Source: Actinobacteria bacterium IMCC26256
GTDB taxonomy: Bacteria; Actinomycetota; Acidimicrobiia; IMCC26256
Reading direction: 5' to 3'
Length of the DNA: 64,000 nucleotides
Assembly (NCBI GenBank): GCA_001023575.1
Contig: CP011489.1
Coordinates: 62,001 to 126,000, forward strand
In this document: positions 26,546-43,354 of the stretch, piece after piece
How positions within the stretch are numbered: the first letter of the stretch is position 1
Layout: every line of letters starts with the position of its first letter
Program-made: the position numbers and the translations under genes
Notes under the pieces: model-generated
Database searches by the model: none
Seen by the model: the letters and a program-made list of their open reading frames with translations, nothing else
What the model was told of the DNA's origin: nothing

Positions 26546-26593
26546 AACTTCGGGTGATTAGTGTCGCTATAGCGACACTAAGTGACCGAAGTT
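26546..26593. promoter_or_regulatory. 48-nt inverted repeat, possible terminator or operator
   Basis: The inner 24 bp (26558-26581) are a perfect palindrome with no loop, built on TTAGTGTCGCTA. After a 4-bp unpaired bulge on each side, a second 8-bp pair (AACTTCGG/CCGAAGTT) extends it. It starts 4 bp after the SRPBCC stop. No clear U-tract follows, so a Rho-independent terminator is not certain. Confidence 0.6.
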
Positions 26594-26640
26594 CAGAGGC
26601 TTTTGGGGCCTCGGGTAGCCTGACCCCCTTAGGGGGATTC

Positions 26641-28377
26641 GTGCGACAGGTATACGCATGCAGGCTTGACATGGCTTTTGTCTCAAAGGCGCGCACGGAT
26701 GTCGATTTTTTGAACGCGAAAGCGGCGGCACGCCAGGCTGTTGAGCAATCTGCAAGCCATGCAGACTGGGCCGATGATGATCGCACCGAGTGGGAGCCTG
26801 CCCCTTACCACCGTGTAACTGCGAGGCGTTTGGTAGACGACCAGAGCGAGGATGCACTCGTCACGCTTATCTGGGAACGCCCGCATGCTGAACCAGATTT
26901 AGTGACTCGTACCGAGGTACTCGTGGGGCGCGAAGGTACTCAAGGTTGGGTCGTGGTGCGTGAAGCGATTGGCTCCGTTGACCCAACCCTCACCCCTCCG
27001 GTTCTTACCCCAACCGTTCCGCCAAATGTTGTTCAGAGTCTTATTGATCAGATTGCTTTTGAGGATGCAAACCGTCGGCTTACATCTAAAGCGGCAGTTG
27101 TCGGTGCCGATGGTGTCGCTGAGATTGATTACTTCGTTGGGAGTGGTAGACGGCTCCCTGTCGTAGTGCTCTCAGACGATGGCACGGGGAGAGTTACCAA
27201 GATTGCTAATGGTATTGCAGGTCGCCTTGTTGGCCTTGCGCACGTATTCGTTCTCGATGGCTCAGGGGCTACCGTCGCGTTCAATGAGGGGATTGGTGTA
27301 AACCACATTGTCCCTGCCGGCGGAGCGCGCCTCTTTTGGCCGCGCTTTAATGCCTCGCACTCAAAAGGCAATCGACATTGGGGCGCTCCTGAGGTGATGA
27401 ATAACGCTGGCAGGGTAGAGCCAGCGTTTGTTACAGAAGTAGTGCGAACAATCTTCGATGCTGGTGCGCTGCGTATCCCGGACCCGCCACTTGTAGAGCG
27501 CCTTGAGGCTGCGCGTATTCGTCAGCGCATTGCAGAGCGTCGTGCCGAGTTAGCGGAGAGAGAGTTAGCGGCACAGGCTGCACAACCTGTTACTGCTCAA
27601 CAAGCAGTGGTCACTGAAGTGCCACGTATCATTCTGCCGATTCCTCTTCCAGAGACGTTGGAGCAAAAACTACCGAGCATCAAGATCGAAGCCGATCCCG
27701 AGGCTGCAACTCCGGTTGTGGCAGAACAAGTGGAGGCTCAAGGCCGACTCGATGAATCTGAGATAGAGGCATGGGAGAAAGACCTGCGCGAGCTCGAGTC
27801 TGTACGTGAGCGACTGGCGCGCGTTGAGGTAGATCGCGAACGTCTTCGCAGAGACTTTGACCACATGCGCGATCAATGGGTTGCGCGCGCTGAGAAGGGC
27901 GAGGTATTCGCTGGCCCGCCCAAGGCAATGTCGCTAGTTGAAGTCGTAAGGAAGGCCGAGCTTGGGCTACCAAATTTGGTATTCCTAAAATCTGCAGTTA
28001 CCTCCGCGCAGAATTGGCAGTTCGATAGAACCGATGATGTTTGGAATGCCTTTATGAGTCTTGATTTCTTGGCAGGGCGATGGATAGAGCGGCTCATGAA
28101 TACTCCCTTCGCCGAGGCGGCAGAGGAGATTGGTCTCGACTGGGCATCGGATGTAAGCGAGGTGGCGACGAATAAATACGCGGTGGACTACATGCGTAAA
28201 TTCGAGGGGCGAGACATCTTTCTTGGTCCCCATGTGCGAATGAGCGGCGGGCGACGGCTCCTACGTATCTACTGTGTGCTCGACGAGTCGCCTGGCCCGG
28301 TTGGTGGGCTCCCAGTGAGGCGTTTCATCATCGGGCATGTCGGAAAGCACCTACGGGATAGGACAAACAACGACTAG
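26641..28377 (+). CDS. Large unknown protein with charged central coiled coil
   Basis: I use GTG 26641, preceded by AGGGGG at 26631-26636; an ATG lies ten codons later. The ~578-residue product has an N-terminal region (~1-200) of mixed strands, a charged coiled coil (~300-430, many Arg/Glu/Ala heptads with QRIAERRAELAERE and ERLARVEVDRERLRRD), and a compact C-terminal domain containing WNAFMSLDFLAG and the end motif RFIIGHVGKHL. The last motif recurs in unannotated actinobacterial proteins I cannot name. No membrane segment or catalytic signature is obvious. CCCCCT/AGGGGG can form a hairpin over its ribosome site. Confidence 0.6.
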   Translation: MRQVYACRLDMAFVSKARTDVDFLNAKAAARQAVEQSASHADWADDDRTEWEPAPYHRVTARRLVDDQSEDALVTLIWERPHAEPDLVTRTEVLVGREGTQGWVVVREAIGSVDPTLTPPVLTPTVPPNVVQSLIDQIAFEDANRRLTSKAAVVGADGVAEIDYFVGSGRRLPVVVLSDDGTGRVTKIANGIAGRLVGLAHVFVLDGSGATVAFNEGIGVNHIVPAGGARLFWPRFNASHSKGNRHWGAPEVMNNAGRVEPAFVTEVVRTIFDAGALRIPDPPLVERLEAARIRQRIAERRAELAERELAAQAAQPVTAQQAVVTEVPRIILPIPLPETLEQKLPSIKIEADPEAATPVVAEQVEAQGRLDESEIEAWEKDLRELESVRERLARVEVDRERLRRDFDHMRDQWVARAEKGEVFAGPPKAMSLVEVVRKAELGLPNLVFLKSAVTSAQNWQFDRTDDVWNAFMSLDFLAGRWIERLMNTPFAEAAEEIGLDWASDVSEVATNKYAVDYMRKFEGRDIFLGPHVRMSGGRRLLRIYCVLDESPGPVGGLPVRRFIIGHVGKHLRDRTNND

Positions 28378-31382: not shown

Positions 31383-31458
31383 GCGCTCGTAGCTCAACGG
31401 ATAGAGCATTTGATTACGGATCAAAAGGTTGGGGGTTCGATTCCCTCCGAGCGCACCA
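31383..31458 (+). tRNA. tRNA-Arg (anticodon ACG), island attachment target
   Basis: The acceptor GCGCTCG pairs with CGAGCGC, followed by A and encoded CCA. The stem TTTGA/TCAAA encloses TTACGGA, giving ACG (read as ICG). Its last nine bases are part of the 52-nt repeat that bounds the island, so the gene stays intact after integration. Confidence 0.95.
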
Positions 31459-31501
31459 CACAGATGTCGCTTAGAACCTCGGATTTCTAACAGCGAAGGT
31501 C
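31450..31501 (+). repeat. attL direct repeat
   Basis: The 52-nt repeat starts in the tRNA-Arg acceptor stem (AGCGCACCACACAGATGT at its start) and is matched at 43303-43354 with two mismatches. Confidence 0.88.
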
Positions 31502-31849
31502 GGCTCCCAACCCAATGGGAGTAACCATGCTCAGCCACGCACTCAGCCACGCACGAATCTGCTCAGCCACAGACACTTTGGCGAGACGAGAACCGAGTTC
31601 TCTCGAACCGCATCGCTGCGAGCCGCACGAGTCTTCTCTACTTGAAGCTCGTCTCCTTGGTGGTGCAGCACAGCCCGAGGGGTACTACCAGAACTCGTCA
31701 CATAACGCGGTATGCTTCTTTGGACAATTCATATTGCGTAGAGCCCCGAGATGTAAATCTCCCCGACGAGTCTTCGGACTCCGAGTGGCTGAGAGCCAAG
31801 CGACAGTTGCCAGCGATGACTGCTGGTTTAACGAAACTTGGTTCTTGAC
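31502..31849. other. Gene-free stretch with CTCAGCCAC repeats (candidate recombinase arm sites)
   Basis: No convincing gene is visible. CTCAGCCAC occurs at 31530, 31542 and 31562 in direct order, and its complement at 31785. They lie between attL and xis, where arm-type integrase or Xis sites are expected. The binding role is inferred. Confidence 0.4.
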
Positions 31850-32053
31850 ATGCCTACAGACGTACTCGCATACACGATTCCACAATGTGCAGAGCTCCTC
31901 GGAGTCTCTAAAAACACTGTTTATAGGCTCATCGGTGATGGCCTCCTTGAAGCAATACAGGTCAGGAGCAAGTACCGAGTACGCAGAATTGCGCTCGAGC
32001 GTTACCTCGATCAAGCCAGTCGCATACGTGACGAGAGCTTTGCGAGGCTCTGA
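31850..32053 (+). CDS. xis: Excisionase-like HTH protein
   Basis: A 67-residue protein beginning at ATG 31850. It is a winged-helix excisionase-family DNA-binding domain: YTIPQCAELLGVSKNTVYRL is the helix-turn-helix and RRIALERYL closes the wing. Its TGA overlaps the integrase ATG by one base, so translation is coupled. It would bend attachment-site DNA and steer the integrase toward excision. Confidence 0.78.
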   Translation: MPTDVLAYTIPQCAELLGVSKNTVYRLIGDGLLEAIQVRSKYRVRRIALERYLDQASRIRDESFARL

Positions 32054-33300
32054 TGTCTAAGAGCAGAAACGGCGAAGGATCAATATTTAGCAACACGAAC
32101 AAGAACGGGCGCGTCATCAGCTACAGCGTCGAGATGAGCATGGGTAGAGACGCTGACGGCAAGCGGATACGCACCCGCAGGACAGTCAAAACCTTAAAAG
32201 AAGCCAAAGACCTAAGAACCCGGCTAGCGAACCAATCCCTGGACGGGAACCTAACAATCGTCAATGGCGAGACGTTAAGAACCTATGGACTGAACTGGAT
32301 AAAGGATGTGACAGTCCACCAAGTAAGAGCCACAACATCAAGCCACTATGAGTATCTGCTGCGCAAGTATGTATTCCCACACCTCGGCTCTGTGCGCATG
32401 GTCGATCTAAGACCAACGCATATAGATCGCTGGATGACAAAACTTCGTCGAGAAGGCTTGAGCGCCTCGACAGTAAATAGCGCAAGACAAGTCTTAGGGG
32501 CTATGTGTAAGAACGCAGAGCGAGGCGGGATCATCAATAGGAATCCAGTCTCAGCAACTAGCTCTGTAAAGAAGCAGCAAGGCGACAAGACGCGTGTATG
32601 CCCACCCTGGGAACTAGACGAGATTTACAAGGTGCTTGGTGAGGCCAAAGTGACCAAACTCGACGCCTTCTTTCACGTAATGCTCCACACAGGAATACGG
32701 CCAGGAGAAGCGCTAGGTCTCCGATGGGAAGACGTTGACCTCGAAGAAGGCTATTTCTCTGTCACCGGCACACAAAAAGCAGGTCGCGTGAACCTCCCCG
32801 ACGGACGAGGGTTGGTGCGCCCGATAAGAAACGATCCTAAAACTGCACAGAGCCGAAGACGACTTCCAATCTCAGAAGCGTTAGCAGAGTCATTGGATCG
32901 CCAGCAGATGCGCCAATCTGTAGACGAGCTAAAAGCAGGCCCCAAATGGATTAAGAGTGGGTACGTATTGACTAGCGAAGTCGGCACGCCATACTCAGAT
33001 GCGAATCTGCGCAAGCAATACAAGAAGTTCTTAGAGAGGATTGGGGTGCGTTACATACGCCTCCACGACCTACGTCACAGCACTGCACGTGCAGCTTTAA
33101 ACACAGGAGAGGTCCCTATAGAGCAAGTAAGTCAAGCCTATGGACACTCGCGACTAGACACCACACACCGTATCTACGGTGGAAATATCCCACGCTATAA
33201 CGATGGCTTCATCTCAGGGCTCAGTGGAGTCCTCCCACCGGCATCACATGTAAACCTGAAGGCGATTCAACAAACACGGGGGATAGGTAATGGAGAATAA
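32053..33300 (+). CDS. int: Tyrosine recombinase / integrase
   Basis: A 415-residue integrase. An N-terminal arm-binding region (~1-60, GEGSIFSN...RTRRTVKTLKEA) and a core-binding SAM-like domain (~75-160) precede the catalytic domain. The catalytic residues are seen in HTGIRPGEALGLRW (Arg), LHDLRHSTA (H-x-x-R), GHSRLDTTHRIYGG (His and the nucleophile Tyr). It would recombine the tRNA-Arg attachment site. It overlaps xis and a 37-codon ORF, in the usual actinobacterial integrative-element order. Confidence 0.95.
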   Translation: MSKSRNGEGSIFSNTNKNGRVISYSVEMSMGRDADGKRIRTRRTVKTLKEAKDLRTRLANQSLDGNLTIVNGETLRTYGLNWIKDVTVHQVRATTSSHYEYLLRKYVFPHLGSVRMVDLRPTHIDRWMTKLRREGLSASTVNSARQVLGAMCKNAERGGIINRNPVSATSSVKKQQGDKTRVCPPWELDEIYKVLGEAKVTKLDAFFHVMLHTGIRPGEALGLRWEDVDLEEGYFSVTGTQKAGRVNLPDGRGLVRPIRNDPKTAQSRRRLPISEALAESLDRQQMRQSVDELKAGPKWIKSGYVLTSEVGTPYSDANLRKQYKKFLERIGVRYIRLHDLRHSTARAALNTGEVPIEQVSQAYGHSRLDTTHRIYGGNIPRYNDGFISGLSGVLPPASHVNLKAIQQTRGIGNGE

Positions 33301-34082: not shown

Positions 34083-35060
34083 TTGACCAAGCTTGGTCGC
34101 CCCCCTGAGACAGTGTTGATTTTAAAAAAGAATGAGGACTTCTTGGAAACGCCTAAAATTAAGAAAGATAAAAAATTAAATCCCCTGACTCCGGGTGCCG
34201 TCTCGGCGCCTCGAGCAAAAAAGCCTGCTTTCAATGGTTTATCCCCCCAAAACTGGACGAAGCTAAGTAGGAATGTTTGGTCTGATCTGTCATCTCCAAG
34301 GCATAAGCGGCAACTCGCACATGGCGCGGTGTTTCCGCTAAAGCTGGCAGATCGCTTAATTACTATGTACTCCGGGCCCGGAGATCTGGTGTTCGAACCA
34401 TTCGCTGGTGTCGGCACAACGCTGATAGCAGCATCAGCTCTCGGACGGCGATCTGTAGGCTTTGAATTAAATCCTGAATTTGTCAAGGTGGCGGAAGGCT
34501 GGATCGCAGAGGAATCACTGACCCTCTTGTCTCCATTAGACACGACCCCGACTTTGTACAATGACGATTGCAGAAATCTCGCTAAGTATCTGGAGCCGAA
34601 TTCAGTCCAAGTCACTGTTACTTCGCCTCCTTACGCTGACTTTATTCGCAGGTCGGTAGAGGATCGGAAGAAAACACATAAGACGAGTCGAATTGTTCAC
34701 GACAACAATTCGAAAGTTAAGGCGTACTCTGACGACACGCGCGATTTCGGCAATCTTGATTATGACAAGTTTTTAGAGGACTCACGCGAACTTTTTGCTG
34801 CCCTGCTGCCTGTGACAAAGCCAGATGGCTACGCGGTATGGGTAGTGAAAGATTACCGACTACCCCCTGATCGCCCCTATATTTCAATGCACTCAGATAT
34901 AGCCAAAGTCGCTCAAGAGGTTGGGTGGTTATGGCATGACTTAATTGTCTGGGACCAGAACGAACAGCGTCGACTTGTTCTGCTTGGGTATCCAACCCGT
35001 TTTTACACGAATCAGAACTGCTCGTTTCTAGTCGTCTTGAGGCGGAAACTTGTCAAGTGA
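34083..35060 (+). CDS. DNA methyltransferase 1 (TSPPY type)
   Basis: A 325-residue protein with a TTG start. Motif I is FEPFAGVGTT at ~104-113 and the catalytic motif IV is TSPPY at ~180-184. Motif I precedes motif IV, as in alpha/gamma-type order, unlike the beta group. The TSPPY form fits N4-cytosine or N6-adenine methylation. The N-terminus carries a Lys-rich leader. The gene overlaps methyltransferase 2 by 11 bp, so they are one unit. Two unrelated-sequence methyltransferases suggest an asymmetric recognition sequence. Confidence 0.85.
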   Translation: MTKLGRPPETVLILKKNEDFLETPKIKKDKKLNPLTPGAVSAPRAKKPAFNGLSPQNWTKLSRNVWSDLSSPRHKRQLAHGAVFPLKLADRLITMYSGPGDLVFEPFAGVGTTLIAASALGRRSVGFELNPEFVKVAEGWIAEESLTLLSPLDTTPTLYNDDCRNLAKYLEPNSVQVTVTSPPYADFIRRSVEDRKKTHKTSRIVHDNNSKVKAYSDDTRDFGNLDYDKFLEDSRELFAALLPVTKPDGYAVWVVKDYRLPPDRPYISMHSDIAKVAQEVGWLWHDLIVWDQNEQRRLVLLGYPTRFYTNQNCSFLVVLRRKLVK

Positions 35061-36117
35061 AGATCTAGCTCTTCATAAGGCACACCCCTATCCGTGCAAG
35101 TTCCCGCCAAGTATCGTGCAAGCCCATTTACCCGATAAAGGTCTAGTTTTTGATCCATATTGCGGAAGCGGCACGACGCTTTTAGAAGCTGCGTACAGAG
35201 GATTAGATGTTTTCGGTGTGGACTGCAACCCAATTGCGACTTTAATTTCAGATTGCAAACTTGTAAACGTTCCTAGTAAAAGTCTTTATCAAATATCCAA
35301 GCTCGCCGCAGACTTTGATCTCCACTTGAATGAACTAGCGAGATTTGACGCGCCTCTCCATGAATTTCCAGGTCGTGATCACTGGTTCTCGGAGCAGGCC
35401 CAAAAAGAGTTTGCCTACGCTCTAAAGATTCTTTCTACATATCGTCGAGGGTCGGGCGAGTGGAGCATTATTGCGGTGGCGCTATCGGCAATAACAAACA
35501 GGTTTAGTAATCAGGACTCGGAAACTAGGTACGCGGCAGTCTCGAAACCGTCAGTTCCTGGCACGATGACGCGGTCATTTCTCAAAAAAATTGAGAGCAT
35601 AATCAGCGCACTGCATGAGAGAGGCGAACTTAAATCAAAAAGAGTTACCCATCTAGGGGATTTAAGACACGGAGTCCCTCTCGAACCACAGAGCGTCGAT
35701 GTAATCATCACGTCTCCGCCTTATGCCAACACAATGGATTACTATCTTTATCATAAGCAGAGGATGAACATTCTGGGGTTTGACTTTAAGCAAGCACAGA
35801 ACTTGGAGATTGGATCTCGCCATCAGTTCTCCTCCAAAAAAGACGATGTTTCTAAATGGAATGAGGACTATGAGCTTGCCCTCTCAAAGGCGTTAGAACT
35901 ACTCAAGCCTGGAGGCGTCGCATGGATCATTATCGGGGATAGTCAAATTGCTGGCGACAGAATCGATGGTGGAGCCTTGACAGTTGATGCAGCGAAATCA
36001 CTTGGTTATAGATCAAATGTTATGGAGTCAATTCCAATGGCAGGAAAGAGTAGGCTTTTTGCAGCGAGTTTCCAACGCCCGAATAAGTATGAGCACGTTG
36101 TTCGAATACAGGGGTGA
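35050..36117 (+). CDS. DNA methyltransferase 2 (TSPPY type)
   Basis: A 355-residue protein with a TTG start. Motif I is FDPYCGSGTT (~34-43) and motif IV is TSPPYANTMDYY (~221-232). A long segment (~75-200), which may hold the target-recognition region, separates them, so this differs from methyltransferase 1. It overlaps methyltransferase 1 by 11 bp and the following large protein by GTGA. It would modify the second strand of the same site. No stand-alone regulator is seen inside the cluster. Confidence 0.85.
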   Translation: MSSEDLALHKAHPYPCKFPPSIVQAHLPDKGLVFDPYCGSGTTLLEAAYRGLDVFGVDCNPIATLISDCKLVNVPSKSLYQISKLAADFDLHLNELARFDAPLHEFPGRDHWFSEQAQKEFAYALKILSTYRRGSGEWSIIAVALSAITNRFSNQDSETRYAAVSKPSVPGTMTRSFLKKIESIISALHERGELKSKRVTHLGDLRHGVPLEPQSVDVIITSPPYANTMDYYLYHKQRMNILGFDFKQAQNLEIGSRHQFSSKKDDVSKWNEDYELALSKALELLKPGGVAWIIIGDSQIAGDRIDGGALTVDAAKSLGYRSNVMESIPMAGKSRLFAASFQRPNKYEHVVRIQG

Positions 36118-37730
36118 CTGTGCCAGAAGAGCTTCGCATTTACTACGAGTGCCTGGAGCAGGCAAGACATTTTGTAGCCCCGATTGCTCAGACAGCAACA
36201 GGAATTCTCGCAGATCCAATCTTCATTGAGATTAGCAAAGCAACCGCTAAATCGGTGATAGCTAAGTCGCTGGCCATGGGCCTTGCCCTAAGAAATCCAG
36301 ATGCAATAGTCACAGTTGTTCGTGAATCTGTAGAAATTCCTTTGGTATGGATCGAGTTCACCACCCAGGTATACACGGAAGATCACGCACTGCAAGGCTT
36401 TAACTCATTTGTTGCTGCTGGGAACGCCAATATTCCATTTGTCAAGATAGTGGCACGGCGGGTCTCTGCATCCGACCACGGCGGTGCAACTAACTTTGAC
36501 TACCGGCAACCGTTCAGAATTCTTTGGCGCGATTACGGCACGCCTTCAGTCCAACTCGAGTGGCCGCTTTCCGAGGATGCCACAACAGCATTGAGGAATC
36601 TTGAGCACAAAGCGTGCCCGCCTGAGGATCTAGGGCTGGGGGAATTACTCGAAGTTGCTTACAAAGGAGCCTGCAGCGGTGGCTCTGCGTCGGAAGCGAT
36701 CAGAGATTATGCGATTGTTTCGAGAACACCTCTTGCGCAAAATATCGCTGAAAATATGGCAGATGTAGGTGTTCATATAGAGAGATTGAGATCAACCCGG
36801 TTCTATCGCCGCGCTGATGGACGTTGGGAGCTCAAATTTAACCGTTGGGGCCACAGCATGGACCCTGAGCGCGGAATGGCTGAGTTCTATGGAAGTTTGC
36901 TTAAAGTCCCTCTAGCGGGGCGTCTTAATGACCCCAAGGCTAACAACGCAGAAGAAGCATTGGTAGCCTTGCGTCGGCATACCGGCATTAATATTCCGTT
37001 AGCCGCGTTGACAAATAAACGCATCTTTCAGGCAGAACAGTTTATTTTAAATTCTGCACTCAATAGAGCAGGGCTCATAATCGCTTGGTATTGCGATGAG
37101 TTTACGATCGGGGATCGTGATGGAAACACTCTCGTAACTATAAAGTGGGTGCTTGGTAAACCAGACGGATTAAAGGTCCTGTTCTCGACCGCTGATGTTA
37201 CAAAAATCGTCGAGAAGACTCATGTCACTGAGGATGACGTCACTTACGTAGTCGCAAACGAAACCTACCCAAAAAACGGTTTTGTAATACAAAGCGTTAG
37301 TTATCCGGGCGCTCAAGGCGATCTCGGGGTGCTCACGGGTGCTGGGAGAGCGGTGCGTCGAAAGTTCTTTGATGTAATTGCCACTAAAATTGTGGGCGCG
37401 AAGACAGTGATTTCGATTACGGAATCTAAAGGATCAGCGCAAAGATCGATAATCCAACCTGATATCGACACGGTTCTTAGTTGGCGCGATGATTCTGCGA
37501 ACCGGAAGAATCTTCTTACGCGCATTGGAGAAAAGATGACATCGATTGTGCTTGCTTCGATTGCATACCCTGGTTCCAAGGTAGTCCCGTCGAATCGCGG
37601 GGCCGATCTCGACATGGTGATCTTGGTTGAACCAGATGAATGGCAAATTTGGGCTCCTCTAAACTCTAGCGTCTTAGGCATTGACGTTCCGAAGGGCGTG
37701 TCGAACCTCCCGGTTCGTTACAAGTATTGA
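36114..37730 (+). CDS. Candidate type II restriction endonuclease
   Basis: A 538-residue protein, GTG start, translation-coupled to methyltransferase 2. I do not recognise a named enzyme. Two segments resemble PD-(D/E)xK half-sites: an N-terminal PDAIV (~62-66) with IEFTT strand (E81), and a C-terminal FFDVI (D420) with ITESKG (E437, K439). A middle block around GRWELKFNRWGHSMDPERG (~236-254) looks conserved but its role is unknown. Being the third gene of a two-methyltransferase unit makes restriction nuclease the best reading; a specificity or other accessory protein is possible. Confidence 0.55.
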   Translation: MTVPEELRIYYECLEQARHFVAPIAQTATGILADPIFIEISKATAKSVIAKSLAMGLALRNPDAIVTVVRESVEIPLVWIEFTTQVYTEDHALQGFNSFVAAGNANIPFVKIVARRVSASDHGGATNFDYRQPFRILWRDYGTPSVQLEWPLSEDATTALRNLEHKACPPEDLGLGELLEVAYKGACSGGSASEAIRDYAIVSRTPLAQNIAENMADVGVHIERLRSTRFYRRADGRWELKFNRWGHSMDPERGMAEFYGSLLKVPLAGRLNDPKANNAEEALVALRRHTGINIPLAALTNKRIFQAEQFILNSALNRAGLIIAWYCDEFTIGDRDGNTLVTIKWVLGKPDGLKVLFSTADVTKIVEKTHVTEDDVTYVVANETYPKNGFVIQSVSYPGAQGDLGVLTGAGRAVRRKFFDVIATKIVGAKTVISITESKGSAQRSIIQPDIDTVLSWRDDSANRKNLLTRIGEKMTSIVLASIAYPGSKVVPSNRGADLDMVILVEPDEWQIWAPLNSSVLGIDVPKGVSNLPVRYKY

Positions 37731-38144: not shown

Positions 38145-38855
38145 TTAACTGCAGCCAATAGAAGAAATGTGGGATTGCGTAAGCGCTCTACCGGTGTTTG
38201 CCATCACAACTCCGAGCAATTCGCTAGGCCAAAAGAGTTCGCTCTCTGCTGTCAGCCAGTAGCTAGGTGTTGTTGTCGCCTGGCCTACTAGTTTGGCCTG
38301 AGGGCTTGTGGCAAGGCGTTCGCCCTCAGGTCCTACAATTTGGCGCACATTATCTTTCTGCGGGTCACCCATCCCTGGATCCGATGCAAAGATTGCACAC
38401 GCGATGAGGTGATCGCTGACCACCTGTGGAGCGCTAGAGCTATCGGCAAATTTTAGCGCGATATCAGTTACTTCCATTTCGGTATGCCAAAGTCCATCGA
38501 GGACCAAAACGTTTCTTCCTTCTGCAGCGGTGCCGATCCGAATCTCGGACTCGCCGTAATCTTGCTCAAGGCGATGGAGTGCCACTTCAATGGATGCTCC
38601 GTCGGGCAAGTTAGTTGTCCCAGCCACTATCGCTTTGTTGGCGGAGCGAGTCACAGAATCCACAGTAAGCGTAAACACAGGCAGGATACTCGTCGAGGAA
38701 GTGAACCCTGAAGTAGACGTCACCGTATTCCTGCTGGTCGAGGATGTTATGGGTAGCTTGGCTACAGAGTCTCCTGATCCACTACAGGCTGCTAGTGCGA
38801 GCGCCATCGTGCATACACAGCCTGACATTGAGATACGGCGTTTACGCTTTAACAT
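38145..38855 (-). CDS. Island lipoprotein
   Basis: A 236-residue protein. The signal peptide ends in a lipobox with Cys 24 (ALALAAC). A Ser/Thr-rich spacer follows to about residue 60. The mature part contains beta-rich sequence (FTLTVDSVTRSANKAIVAGTT; ASIEVALHRL). No known catalytic motif is seen. It is the most downstream of the minus-strand cargo genes and may be co-transcribed with the pentapeptide genes. Confidence 0.6.
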   Translation of the reverse strand: MLKRKRRISMSGCVCTMALALAACSGSGDSVAKLPITSSTSRNTVTSTSGFTSSTSILPVFTLTVDSVTRSANKAIVAGTTNLPDGASIEVALHRLEQDYGESEIRIGTAAEGRNVLVLDGLWHTEMEVTDIALKFADSSSAPQVVSDHLIACAIFASDPGMGDPQKDNVRQIVGPEGERLATSPQAKLVGQATTTPSYWLTAESELFWPSELLGVVMANTGRALTQSHISSIGCS

Positions 38856-38871
38856 TAATCACTACCCTTTT

Positions 38872-39135
38872 CTAGTTACTGTTATCAGAGACCCTAGGAG
38901 GGTTACTAGCGCTTTGTGGTGGTGTAAAACCTTCAGGGCAAATTGTGTCTGAATCCCAAATGATCTCGCTCAGGTTGGCACTCTCTAGGTTGACGTCGCG
39001 CAGGGTTGCACTTCGCAGTGTGGCACCGTACAGGTTGGCACAGCTCAGGTCGGCACCGCGCAGGTCAGAGGAGGTCAGGTTGGCGTCGCGAAGGTTTACA
39101 CCTGGCCCTATCTCATACCCTTTTACTAACGCCAA
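38872..39135 (-). CDS. Small pentapeptide-repeat protein (island)
   Basis: I place the start at TTG 39135, by analogy with its paralogue, whose AAGGGG site sits in the same place; an ATG start at 39153 adds six codons. About nine A(D/N)LxxA units (LRDANLTSSDLRGADL) form a right-handed beta-helix, and the C-terminus ends in ICPEGFTPP. It is a short version of the next gene. Some pentapeptide proteins bind gyrase as DNA mimics; no evidence ties this one to gyrase. Confidence 0.6.
   Translation of the reverse strand: MALVKGYEIGPGVNLRDANLTSSDLRGADLSCANLYGATLRSATLRDVNLESANLSEIIWDSDTICPEGFTPPQSASNPPRVSDNSN
38873..38901. repeat. csrA-leader-like repeat, copy 1
   Basis: A 29-nt match to the leader of the CsrA-like gene (TAGTTACTGTTATCAGAG, then CCTAGGAGG). 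It overlaps the 3' end of the short pentapeptide gene. Confidence 0.7.
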
Positions 39136-39152
39136 ACCCCTGCCCCTTTTCA

Positions 39153-39182
39153 TAGTTACTGTTAGTCAGAGACTCTAGGAGA
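39153..39182. repeat. csrA-leader-like repeat, copy 2
   Basis: A 30-nt match, one base longer than copies 1 and 3 (GTTAGTCAGAG). It lies between the two pentapeptide genes. Confidence 0.7.
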
Positions 39183-39187
39183 GTTAC

Positions 39188-39919
39188 CTATGTTGGTGGC
39201 GTAAACCCTGCAGGCCACTTAGTAGTCGAATCCCAATAGGCGTCAACCTGCAAGGGGCCTTGCAGGATGGCAAAGTACAGGTTGGTCTCGCGCAGGTCGG
39301 CATGGTGAAGTTTGGCCTCGCGCAGGTTGGCACCGTCGAGGTTCGCGCCAGTCAGGATGGCATGGCTCAGGTTGGCCTTGCGCAGGTCGGCACCTTTCAG
39401 GTTGACACCGCCCAGGTTGGCGCCGATTAGGTTGGAATCGCTTAGGAAGGCACCCCAAAGGCTGGCGCCTCGTAGGAAGGCACCGTCAAGGCTGGCGCCT
39501 CGCAGGTTGGCACCGTCAAGGTTGGCCTCCCGTAGGTCGGCACCGTCAAGGTTGGCACGGGTCATCTCGGCGAAGCACAGTTTGGCAAAGAACAAGTTAG
39601 CAGCGCGCAGTTTTGTATCCCACAGTTTGGCGTCGCTTAGTTGGGCGCCGCTTAGGTTGGCGCCGCTCAGGTCGGCATCGCGCAGGTTGGCACTGAGCAG
39701 CCAGGCACTGGTTAGGTTGGCCTCGCGCAGGTCGGCACCGTCAAGGTTGGCACCTTGCAGGTTGGCTTTGGTCAGATTGGCACCGCTCAGTTTGGCACGG
39801 GTCAGGTTGGCACCTTGCAGGTTTGCATTGCGCAGTTTGGCATCGATCAGGTTGGCCTCTATCAGGCTGACTCCTGGCCCAATTTTAAAACCATTAGCTT
39901 TTCTATCGAATAGCCCCAC
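39188..39919 (-). CDS. Pentapeptide-repeat protein (island)
   Basis: A 243-residue protein with a GTG start. Nearly the whole length is A(N/D)LxxA repeats (~35 units; ANLRDADLSGANLSGAQL), predicting a quadrilateral beta-helix. The tail reads WDSTTKWPAGFTPPT, like the end of its paralogue. The gene is divergent from csrA-like, with 52 bp between starts, so a shared regulatory region is expected. Its cellular target is unknown. Confidence 0.8.
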   Translation of the reverse strand: MGLFDRKANGFKIGPGVSLIEANLIDAKLRNANLQGANLTRAKLSGANLTKANLQGANLDGADLREANLTSAWLLSANLRDADLSGANLSGAQLSDAKLWDTKLRAANLFFAKLCFAEMTRANLDGADLREANLDGANLRGASLDGAFLRGASLWGAFLSDSNLIGANLGGVNLKGADLRKANLSHAILTGANLDGANLREAKLHHADLRETNLYFAILQGPLQVDAYWDSTTKWPAGFTPPT

Positions 39920-39936
39920 TGCCTGCCCCTTCTATC

Positions 39937-39965
39937 TAGTTAGTGTTATCAGAAACTCTAGGAGG
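39937..39965. repeat. csrA-leader-like repeat, copy 3 (with the ribosome site)
   Basis: The best copy carries the csrA-like ribosome site CTAGGAGG, 6 bp before its ATG. The other copies keep the AGGAG part without a following gene. Confidence 0.75.
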
Positions 39966-39971
39966 CAACAC

Positions 39972-40127
39972 ATGCTCGTGCTTACACGCCGAGACGGCGA
40001 AACGATAAGGCTACTGCTACCCAATAGCGATGAGATCGAGGTAACGCTCATAAGTGGCGGCCCTTGCAGACTCGGGATTACTGCGCCAGATAATGTAGAG
40101 ATAGAGCGCACCGAGCTAACCGAATAG
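39972..40127 (+). CDS. CsrA-like RNA-binding protein
   Basis: A 51-residue protein with a strong AGGAGG site. It reads MLVLTRRDGET, then GGPCRLGITAP and ends VEIERTELTE. It keeps the CsrA RNA-contact residues L4, R6 and R7 on strand 1 and R46, aligned with Arg44 of E. coli CsrA, and the GxxAP motif. The strand 1-2 loop is two residues longer and the C-terminal helix is absent. CsrA dimers bind GGA motifs, often at ribosome sites. Its own leader has such a motif. CsrA is rare in actinobacteria, so an island-borne copy is notable. Confidence 0.8.
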   Translation: MLVLTRRDGETIRLLLPNSDEIEVTLISGGPCRLGITAPDNVEIERTELTE

Positions 40128-40164: not shown

Positions 40165-40458
40165 ATGTCTAATACGCGCCGAATCGTGATGCTCATAACA
40201 ATCTTGTTTTTACTTGCGCTCCCCGTTAGACGAATCATGACCTGGCAGGCCGCAGGATGGTGCAAAGGTGGGATTTTTAGCGCTTATTATGATTACGACA
40301 AGCGATATCCAGACCTTAAAGACGGATCTAGAGACGCAGGCTGCAGAAGAGCCGCTCACCGCGCGCTGACCAAAGCCGAGCAGCAGGCTTTGCTAATTAC
40401 TGTTGGCGGGATTGCGGCATGGGTTTTACTACCAGGCAAGAAGCCCGAAACCGAATAG
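40165..40458 (+). CDS. Small island membrane protein
   Basis: A 97-residue protein starting 37 bp after the CsrA-like stop with a GGGAGGGCAG site. Two membrane helices are likely (about 7-25, IVMLITILFLLALPV, and 75-92, ALLITVGGIAAWVLL). The loop holds two Cys in a basic, Tyr-rich region. It is probably co-transcribed with the CsrA-like gene. Unknown function. Confidence 0.55.
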   Translation: MSNTRRIVMLITILFLLALPVRRIMTWQAAGWCKGGIFSAYYDYDKRYPDLKDGSRDAGCRRAAHRALTKAEQQALLITVGGIAAWVLLPGKKPETE

Positions 40459-40485: not shown

Positions 40486-40650
40486 TCAGTCGCTTTTCTC
40501 TCGCTTAAACCAAAGGTTTGTAGCCCCCATTCCAGAGCCGGTGCTCACTGCGACTAATTCCCACCCGTCACGGCTGTATTGGTCAAGAGTTTTCTCTTGT
40601 ACCTTCTTGAAGGCGCCTACGTTTACGACTGCGTGCTCCCACATCTTCAT
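40486..40650 (-). CDS. DUF4177-like small protein
   Basis: A 54-residue protein (MKMWEHAVVNVG..., DQYSRDGWELVAVSTG..., ending FKREKSD). The WExxVV opening and GWELVAV core are typical of DUF4177. An AGAAGG site precedes the ATG. It is antisense to nothing obvious and stands alone on the minus strand between csrA-like and the J-domain gene. Function is unknown. Confidence 0.55.
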   Translation of the reverse strand: MKMWEHAVVNVGAFKKVQEKTLDQYSRDGWELVAVSTGSGMGATNLWFKREKSD

Positions 40651-43302: not shown

Positions 43303-43354
43303 AGCGCACCACACAGATGTTGCTTAGAACCTCGGATTTCTAACAGCTAAGGTC
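43303..43354 (+). repeat. attR direct repeat
   Basis: The 52-nt match to 31450-31501 has two mismatches. Only its first nine bases match the tRNA, so no second tRNA is formed. Confidence 0.88.

Follow-up and report, generated by a model that had tools for sequence, protein, structure and literature searches.

A minimal CsrA-family gene beside pentapeptide-repeat genes on a tRNA-Arg integrative element of an acidimicrobial actinobacterium

Introduction

The carriage of CsrA-family RNA-binding regulators on plasmids, phages, and integrative conjugative elements is already established (PMC7366521, PMC9928087), and the mobile examples described so far come mainly from Proteobacteria. Here we describe a short csrA gene (39972–40127, + strand) carried by an integrative element of ~11.9 kb, hereafter the island, in the complete 2.46-Mb chromosome of Actinobacteria bacterium IMCC26256, an acidimicrobial actinobacterium. 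Coordinates refer, unless otherwise given, to the 64,000-nucleotide stretch that was analyzed (contig CP011489.1, positions 62,001–126,000), hereafter the window. On balance, the product of this gene is probably a functional RNA-binding protein of the CsrA family in minimal form, carried by a mobile cassette and acting as a dimer, in trans, on GGA-containing leaders beside the CsrA of the host.

Several described systems resemble this arrangement. In the account given by PMC7366521, CsrT (Abbott et al. 2015, cited there) is the product of a csrA-like gene on Legionella integrative conjugative elements whose hosts also have a chromosomal CsrA; by that description the island is similar, although it lacks transfer genes and comes from a different phylum. 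RsmQ, likewise compared by description, is encoded on the Pseudomonas plasmid pQBR103 alongside homologs of the host (PMC9928087); it differs from the island protein in its conjugative plasmid and proteobacterial host, and its RNA binding and targets are known. CsrA proteins are also carried by phages (RsmM of Pseudomonas phages; phrog_9500). The closest matches in named phage records are 47–51% identical to the island protein over nearly its full length (P0001 vs. phrog_9500, 8.5e-10); the Pseudomonas phage proteins examined measure ~123 aa, with a canonical beta1-beta2 turn and a long extension at the C-terminus. More broadly, the island protein shares with the CsrA/RsmA family (E. coli CsrA, P. 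protegens RsmE, B. subtilis CsrA) its profile, its fold, and the residues L4, R6, R7, and the equivalent of R44, whereas it departs from that family in its length, in two of its turns, and in a helix of one turn. The FliW antagonist of the CsrA-FliW flagellar switch was not found in this genome (PF02623, E 1). What is new here is a CsrA of minimal form and altered turns, found on an actinobacterial tRNA element and on a phage-like element, together with the cassette of pentapeptide and DUF4177 genes and its leader module.

A minimal member of the CsrA family

The csrA open reading frame (ORF) begins with ATG, 6 nt downstream of a Shine-Dalgarno (SD) sequence, AGGAGG (39960–39965), and encodes a protein of 51 aa (MLVLTRRDGETIRLLLPNSDEIEVTLISGGPCRLGITAPDNVEIERTELTE). 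The initial annotation, made from sequence alone, had assigned the product to the CsrA family and proposed a profile search as a check; that search agrees with the assignment, Pfam PF02599 matching the full length of the protein at 48.1 bits (E 1.1e-12) against a curated cut-off of 27 bits. The NCBIfam CsrA equivalogs TIGR00202 and NF002469 also match (E 1e-10 and 1e-9, respectively), with scores that miss their trusted cut-offs (38.3 vs. 70.1 bits and 41.3 vs. 73 bits), as would be expected of a divergent family member. By sequence, then, the island protein is a member of the CsrA family and not a CsrA ortholog under the NCBIfam equivalog rule. Its confident PDB sequence matches are CsrA/RsmA chains. 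An AlphaFold model built from 32 CsrAs has a mean pLDDT of 87, and the top 13 Foldseek matches are all CsrA/RsmA (TM 0.5–0.7 on the query), 12 of them with probability 1.00, although, given the short protein, none reaches E 0.001.

Alignment with 31 other CsrAs bears out the residues that had been listed as conserved. L4, R6, and R7 of beta1 are identical, and R46 is the invariant arginine at the end of beta5 (E. coli R44), which is required for GGA recognition (PMC7366521). Beta1 and beta5, the dimer-interface strands, are the best conserved parts of the alignment. In the same set of 32 sequences, the beta1-beta2 turn of the island protein is longer by four residues and the stretch preceding beta4 is shorter by two, and the protein ends before the C-terminal helix has completed its first turn. 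The earlier statement that this helix is lost was nearly right; a single 4-residue turn (47–50) remains in the H1 region of the AlphaFold model.

A longer 271-aa frame (39312–40127) that contains csrA, and a chance ORF, were considered and rejected: the upstream part of the longer frame runs antisense to one of the pentapeptide genes, and this frame is unsupported because that of a viral ortholog opens at the equivalent ATG.

A viral ortholog and a shared cassette

The viral contig L112 (1–8440, 8.4 kb) encodes a 51-aa CsrA that is 94% identical to the island protein. The two genes have equal start, stop, and length, and differ at 15 codons, 12 of them silently and three by replacement; the resulting dN/dS is 0.12 (NG86) to 0.16 (YN00), with a binomial p of ~1e-5 against neutrality. 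This codon comparison indicates that csrA is under purifying selection and that the 51-aa length of the mobile CsrA is maintained by selection. Loss of function through decay or truncation of csrA might otherwise have been suspected from a length below the family average of 65–75 aa (PMC7366521) and from scores under the equivalog cut-offs. The comparison with L112 strongly disfavors it, the SD is good, and the RNA-contact residues are kept; we consider such decay very improbable. E. coli survives truncation of CsrA after 51 codons, with its CsrA function reduced (PMC8805033, PMC3688793); a protein this short can therefore work, perhaps at lower affinity.

Beyond csrA, L112 encodes a serine integrase, an excisionase-like ORF, a replication-like ORF, an HK97-type major head protein, an HNH endonuclease, a terminase small subunit, and four pentapeptide genes, each with a leader module (described below) ahead of it. 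The only island proteins with matches in L112 are CsrA, the pentapeptide proteins, and the DUF4177 protein. Both elements have the same arrangement around csrA, with divergent pentapeptide-repeat genes on one flank and a convergent DUF4177 gene on the other, whereas their integrases differ (tyrosine in the island, serine in L112). The same flanks, together with a near-identical copy on another element, mark csrA as part of a regulatory cassette that is mobile, and not as an isolated gene; the cassette is thus common to elements with different integrases.

Chance adjacency of csrA and pentapeptide genes is unlikely, since the whole host genome contains only ~8 pentapeptide genes. A paper on a Piscirickettsia plasmid names CsrA and pentapeptide proteins on one plasmid, without linking them. 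Within the class, the genome G020, from a different family, contains ~11 dispersed csrA-like copies (L037–L044, L228–L231) with a four-residue insertion; these have a core of ~120 bp in common and varying flanks. In one (L041) the csrA-like gene is divergent from a pentapeptide gene, and a second such pair (L040) is interrupted by a transposase. As the G020 copies lie mostly at contig ends or are broken or frameshifted, in a fragmented assembly, this pairing is suggestive only of a recurrent association. No viral relatives of the G020-type csrA were found.

Proposed action beside the host CsrA

The profile score, the fold model, the RNA-contact residues, and purifying selection together lead us to favor a functional CsrA. 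The island protein would most likely form a homodimer, and the predicted dimer would bind GGA-containing sites over ribosome-binding sites, blocking or tuning translation of presumptive target messages. By analogy with the plasmid-encoded RsmQ in Pseudomonas, a precedent for control of host messages in trans (PMC9928087), it may act in trans beside the chromosomal CsrA, whose targets it could share. Several points weigh against this proposal. The longer beta1-beta2 turn, the shorter stretch before beta4, and the helix cut short all depart from the canonical protein; the 51-codon E. coli CsrA has lowered function (PMC8805033); RNA binding by the island protein is predicted from its sequence; and GGA is not enriched in leaders of the island (7/14) relative to the remaining leaders of the window (28/43; p 0.36).

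The canonical CsrA of the host is a second protein of 62 aa (2370675–2370830 of the genome; L005:9643–9831, − strand). Upstream of its gene are biotin and alanine dehydrogenase-like genes, and no flagellar genes adjoin it in the 19 kb examined. FliW was searched for across the 2.46-Mb genome, without a match to PF02623 at E 1. A host CsrA with no detectable FliW antagonist, and the strong conservation of the dimer-interface strands in the island protein, would be compatible with a role in which the latter has no targets of its own and instead antagonizes or modifies host CsrA, either forming mixed dimers with it or competing for RNA. However, heterodimers of CsrA paralogs have not been demonstrated (PMC7366521), and identity between the island and host proteins is just 43% over the alignment; this role seems to us improbable, though less so than decay of the gene. 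The same 43% identity and the differing turns argue against an origin of the island gene from host csrA, yet the approximately unbiased test does not reject grouping it with the host genus in a single clade (p 0.17), in a CsrA tree of only 80 columns with several long branches. The tree also included three additional copies of the window's own locus (L199–L201), which left the placement unaffected.

The distribution of the family shifts attention from its presence to its form. The initial annotation had stressed that CsrA is seldom found in actinobacteria; this is right only in part, since it is present in 72 of 396 sampled genomes of the phylum and in 34 of 58 of the order, and the emphasis on rarity is further weakened by the canonical CsrA of the host itself. 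By these counts CsrA is not odd here; the minimal form is. A subfamily profile run over the 396 phylum genomes returned no comparable match besides the window's own. The four-residue insertion does occur elsewhere in the class, in G020 and in G002, a member of the same genus, where the stretch examined around the gene contains no mobile genes. A divergent CsrA of a congener (L077:1403–1597; 35–37% identical), near bioB-like and acyltransferase-like genes, has both the four-residue insertion and the two-residue shortening.

The leader module

Every minus-strand gene of the pentapeptide array is preceded by a module of ~45 bp (CCTCCTAGAGTCTCTGATAACAGTAACTAGATAGAAGGGG), and so, on the plus strand, is csrA; the copy between csrA and the adjacent pentapeptide gene (39922–39965) includes the csrA SD. 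Exact matches to its degenerate pattern number three in the whole 2.46-Mb genome, all of them at this locus, and four in IMG/VR, all of them in L112. Despite divergence of 30–39% at silent sites, the intergenic module differs between the island and L112 by only three substitutions and a 2-nt indel. The confinement of the module to these loci, its closeness between the two elements, and the divergent pentapeptide gene beside a csrA-like gene in G020 all favor the main rival explanation, in which the island CsrA is chiefly a local regulator: csrA and the pentapeptide array would be controlled through the module, timing the production of pentapeptide proteins. Against this, the leaders of the pentapeptide genes do not conserve GGA, and the sole GGA of the csrA leader is that of the SD; a predicted hairpin would contain an SD on both strands, but its energy is no better than that of shuffled sequences, and no covariation was found; and gene duplication alone could have given the array copies their common leaders. 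We regard chiefly local control as rather unlikely, while giving it more weight than interference with host CsrA.

A possible self-regulating site of csrA had also been suggested at the outset. With the only GGA of the leader inside AGGAGG, and with no enrichment of GGA among island leaders, the putative site is indistinguishable from an ordinary SD, and we do not retain the suggestion. The module may be a promoter or operator, a riboregulator, or a spacer copied through gene duplication. A fuller hypothesis is tentative, and in our judgment doubtful as a whole: that minimal CsrA, pentapeptide gene or array, and DUF4177 gene form a three-part regulatory cassette that passes among elements unrelated to one another (here a restriction island at tRNA-Arg and a capsid-bearing prophage with a serine integrase), and that CsrA controls the array via a dedicated, previously undescribed, bidirectional leader module of ~45 bp. 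The initial annotation had missed the phage-borne ortholog, the conservation of the cassette, and the repetition of the leader module.

The integrative element

The island setting proposed at the outset is confirmed by an integrase beside a tRNA gene and a repeat of that gene's 3' end at the far end, which together define a tRNA-Arg integrative element. The left attachment repeat (31450–31494) overlaps the 3' end of tRNA-Arg (31383–31458), and the right repeat (43303–43347) is identical to it at 44 of 45 bp, the two being direct repeats. For the two tRNA-Ser genes of the window, no comparable repeat was found within the window. The tyrosine integrase (32053–33300, + strand) matches PF00589 (1.1e-20) and phrog_1 (1.7e-62). 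Just before it lies an ORF (31515–32060, + strand) whose C-terminal part resembles an excisionase-type helix-turn-helix on reading of the sequence, without a Pfam or PHROG match. Searches for an empty attachment site did not find the element flanks in three congeners, whose assemblies are fragmented. Scans of the element proteins against Pfam and PHROGs gave no type IV secretion or conjugation families, and an Rfam scan returned tRNAs only.

The cargo includes a type II restriction-modification set (34083–37730, + strand), in which two ORFs encode methyltransferases and a third matches a type II restriction enzyme of PADLOC (5.8e-19), together with a DnaJ-domain ORF and an ORF of the endonuclease/exonuclease/phosphatase family. 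The array on the minus strand consists of a lipoprotein-like ORF without a Pfam match (38145–38855), a second pentapeptide-repeat ORF (38872–39153), both with the leader module upstream, and, divergent from csrA, a pentapeptide-repeat protein of 243 aa (39188–39919; PF00805, 3.4e-69), homologs of which adjoin csrA in L112. Downstream of csrA, a DUF4177-like ORF (40486–40650, − strand) is convergent with it; the Pfam match (1.8e-4) is under its cut-off, and the homolog in the same place in L112 is 43% identical. Between the two lies a 97-aa ORF (40165–40458, + strand) with a hydrophobic N-terminal stretch and no Pfam or PHROG match, which is missing from the equivalent place in L112. The leader of this ORF has ACTCTAGG-AGG in common with that of csrA. 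Outside the element, a 607-aa ORF (26554–28377) is without any Pfam match.

Significance

The island CsrA is among the smallest CsrA proteins met in this analysis. The host has its own canonical CsrA and lacks a detectable FliW, so the pair offers a two-paralog system in which control by the element and control by the host could be separated. If the proposed reading is true, translational control by mobile DNA would be extended to Actinobacteria and tied to pentapeptide-repeat proteins.
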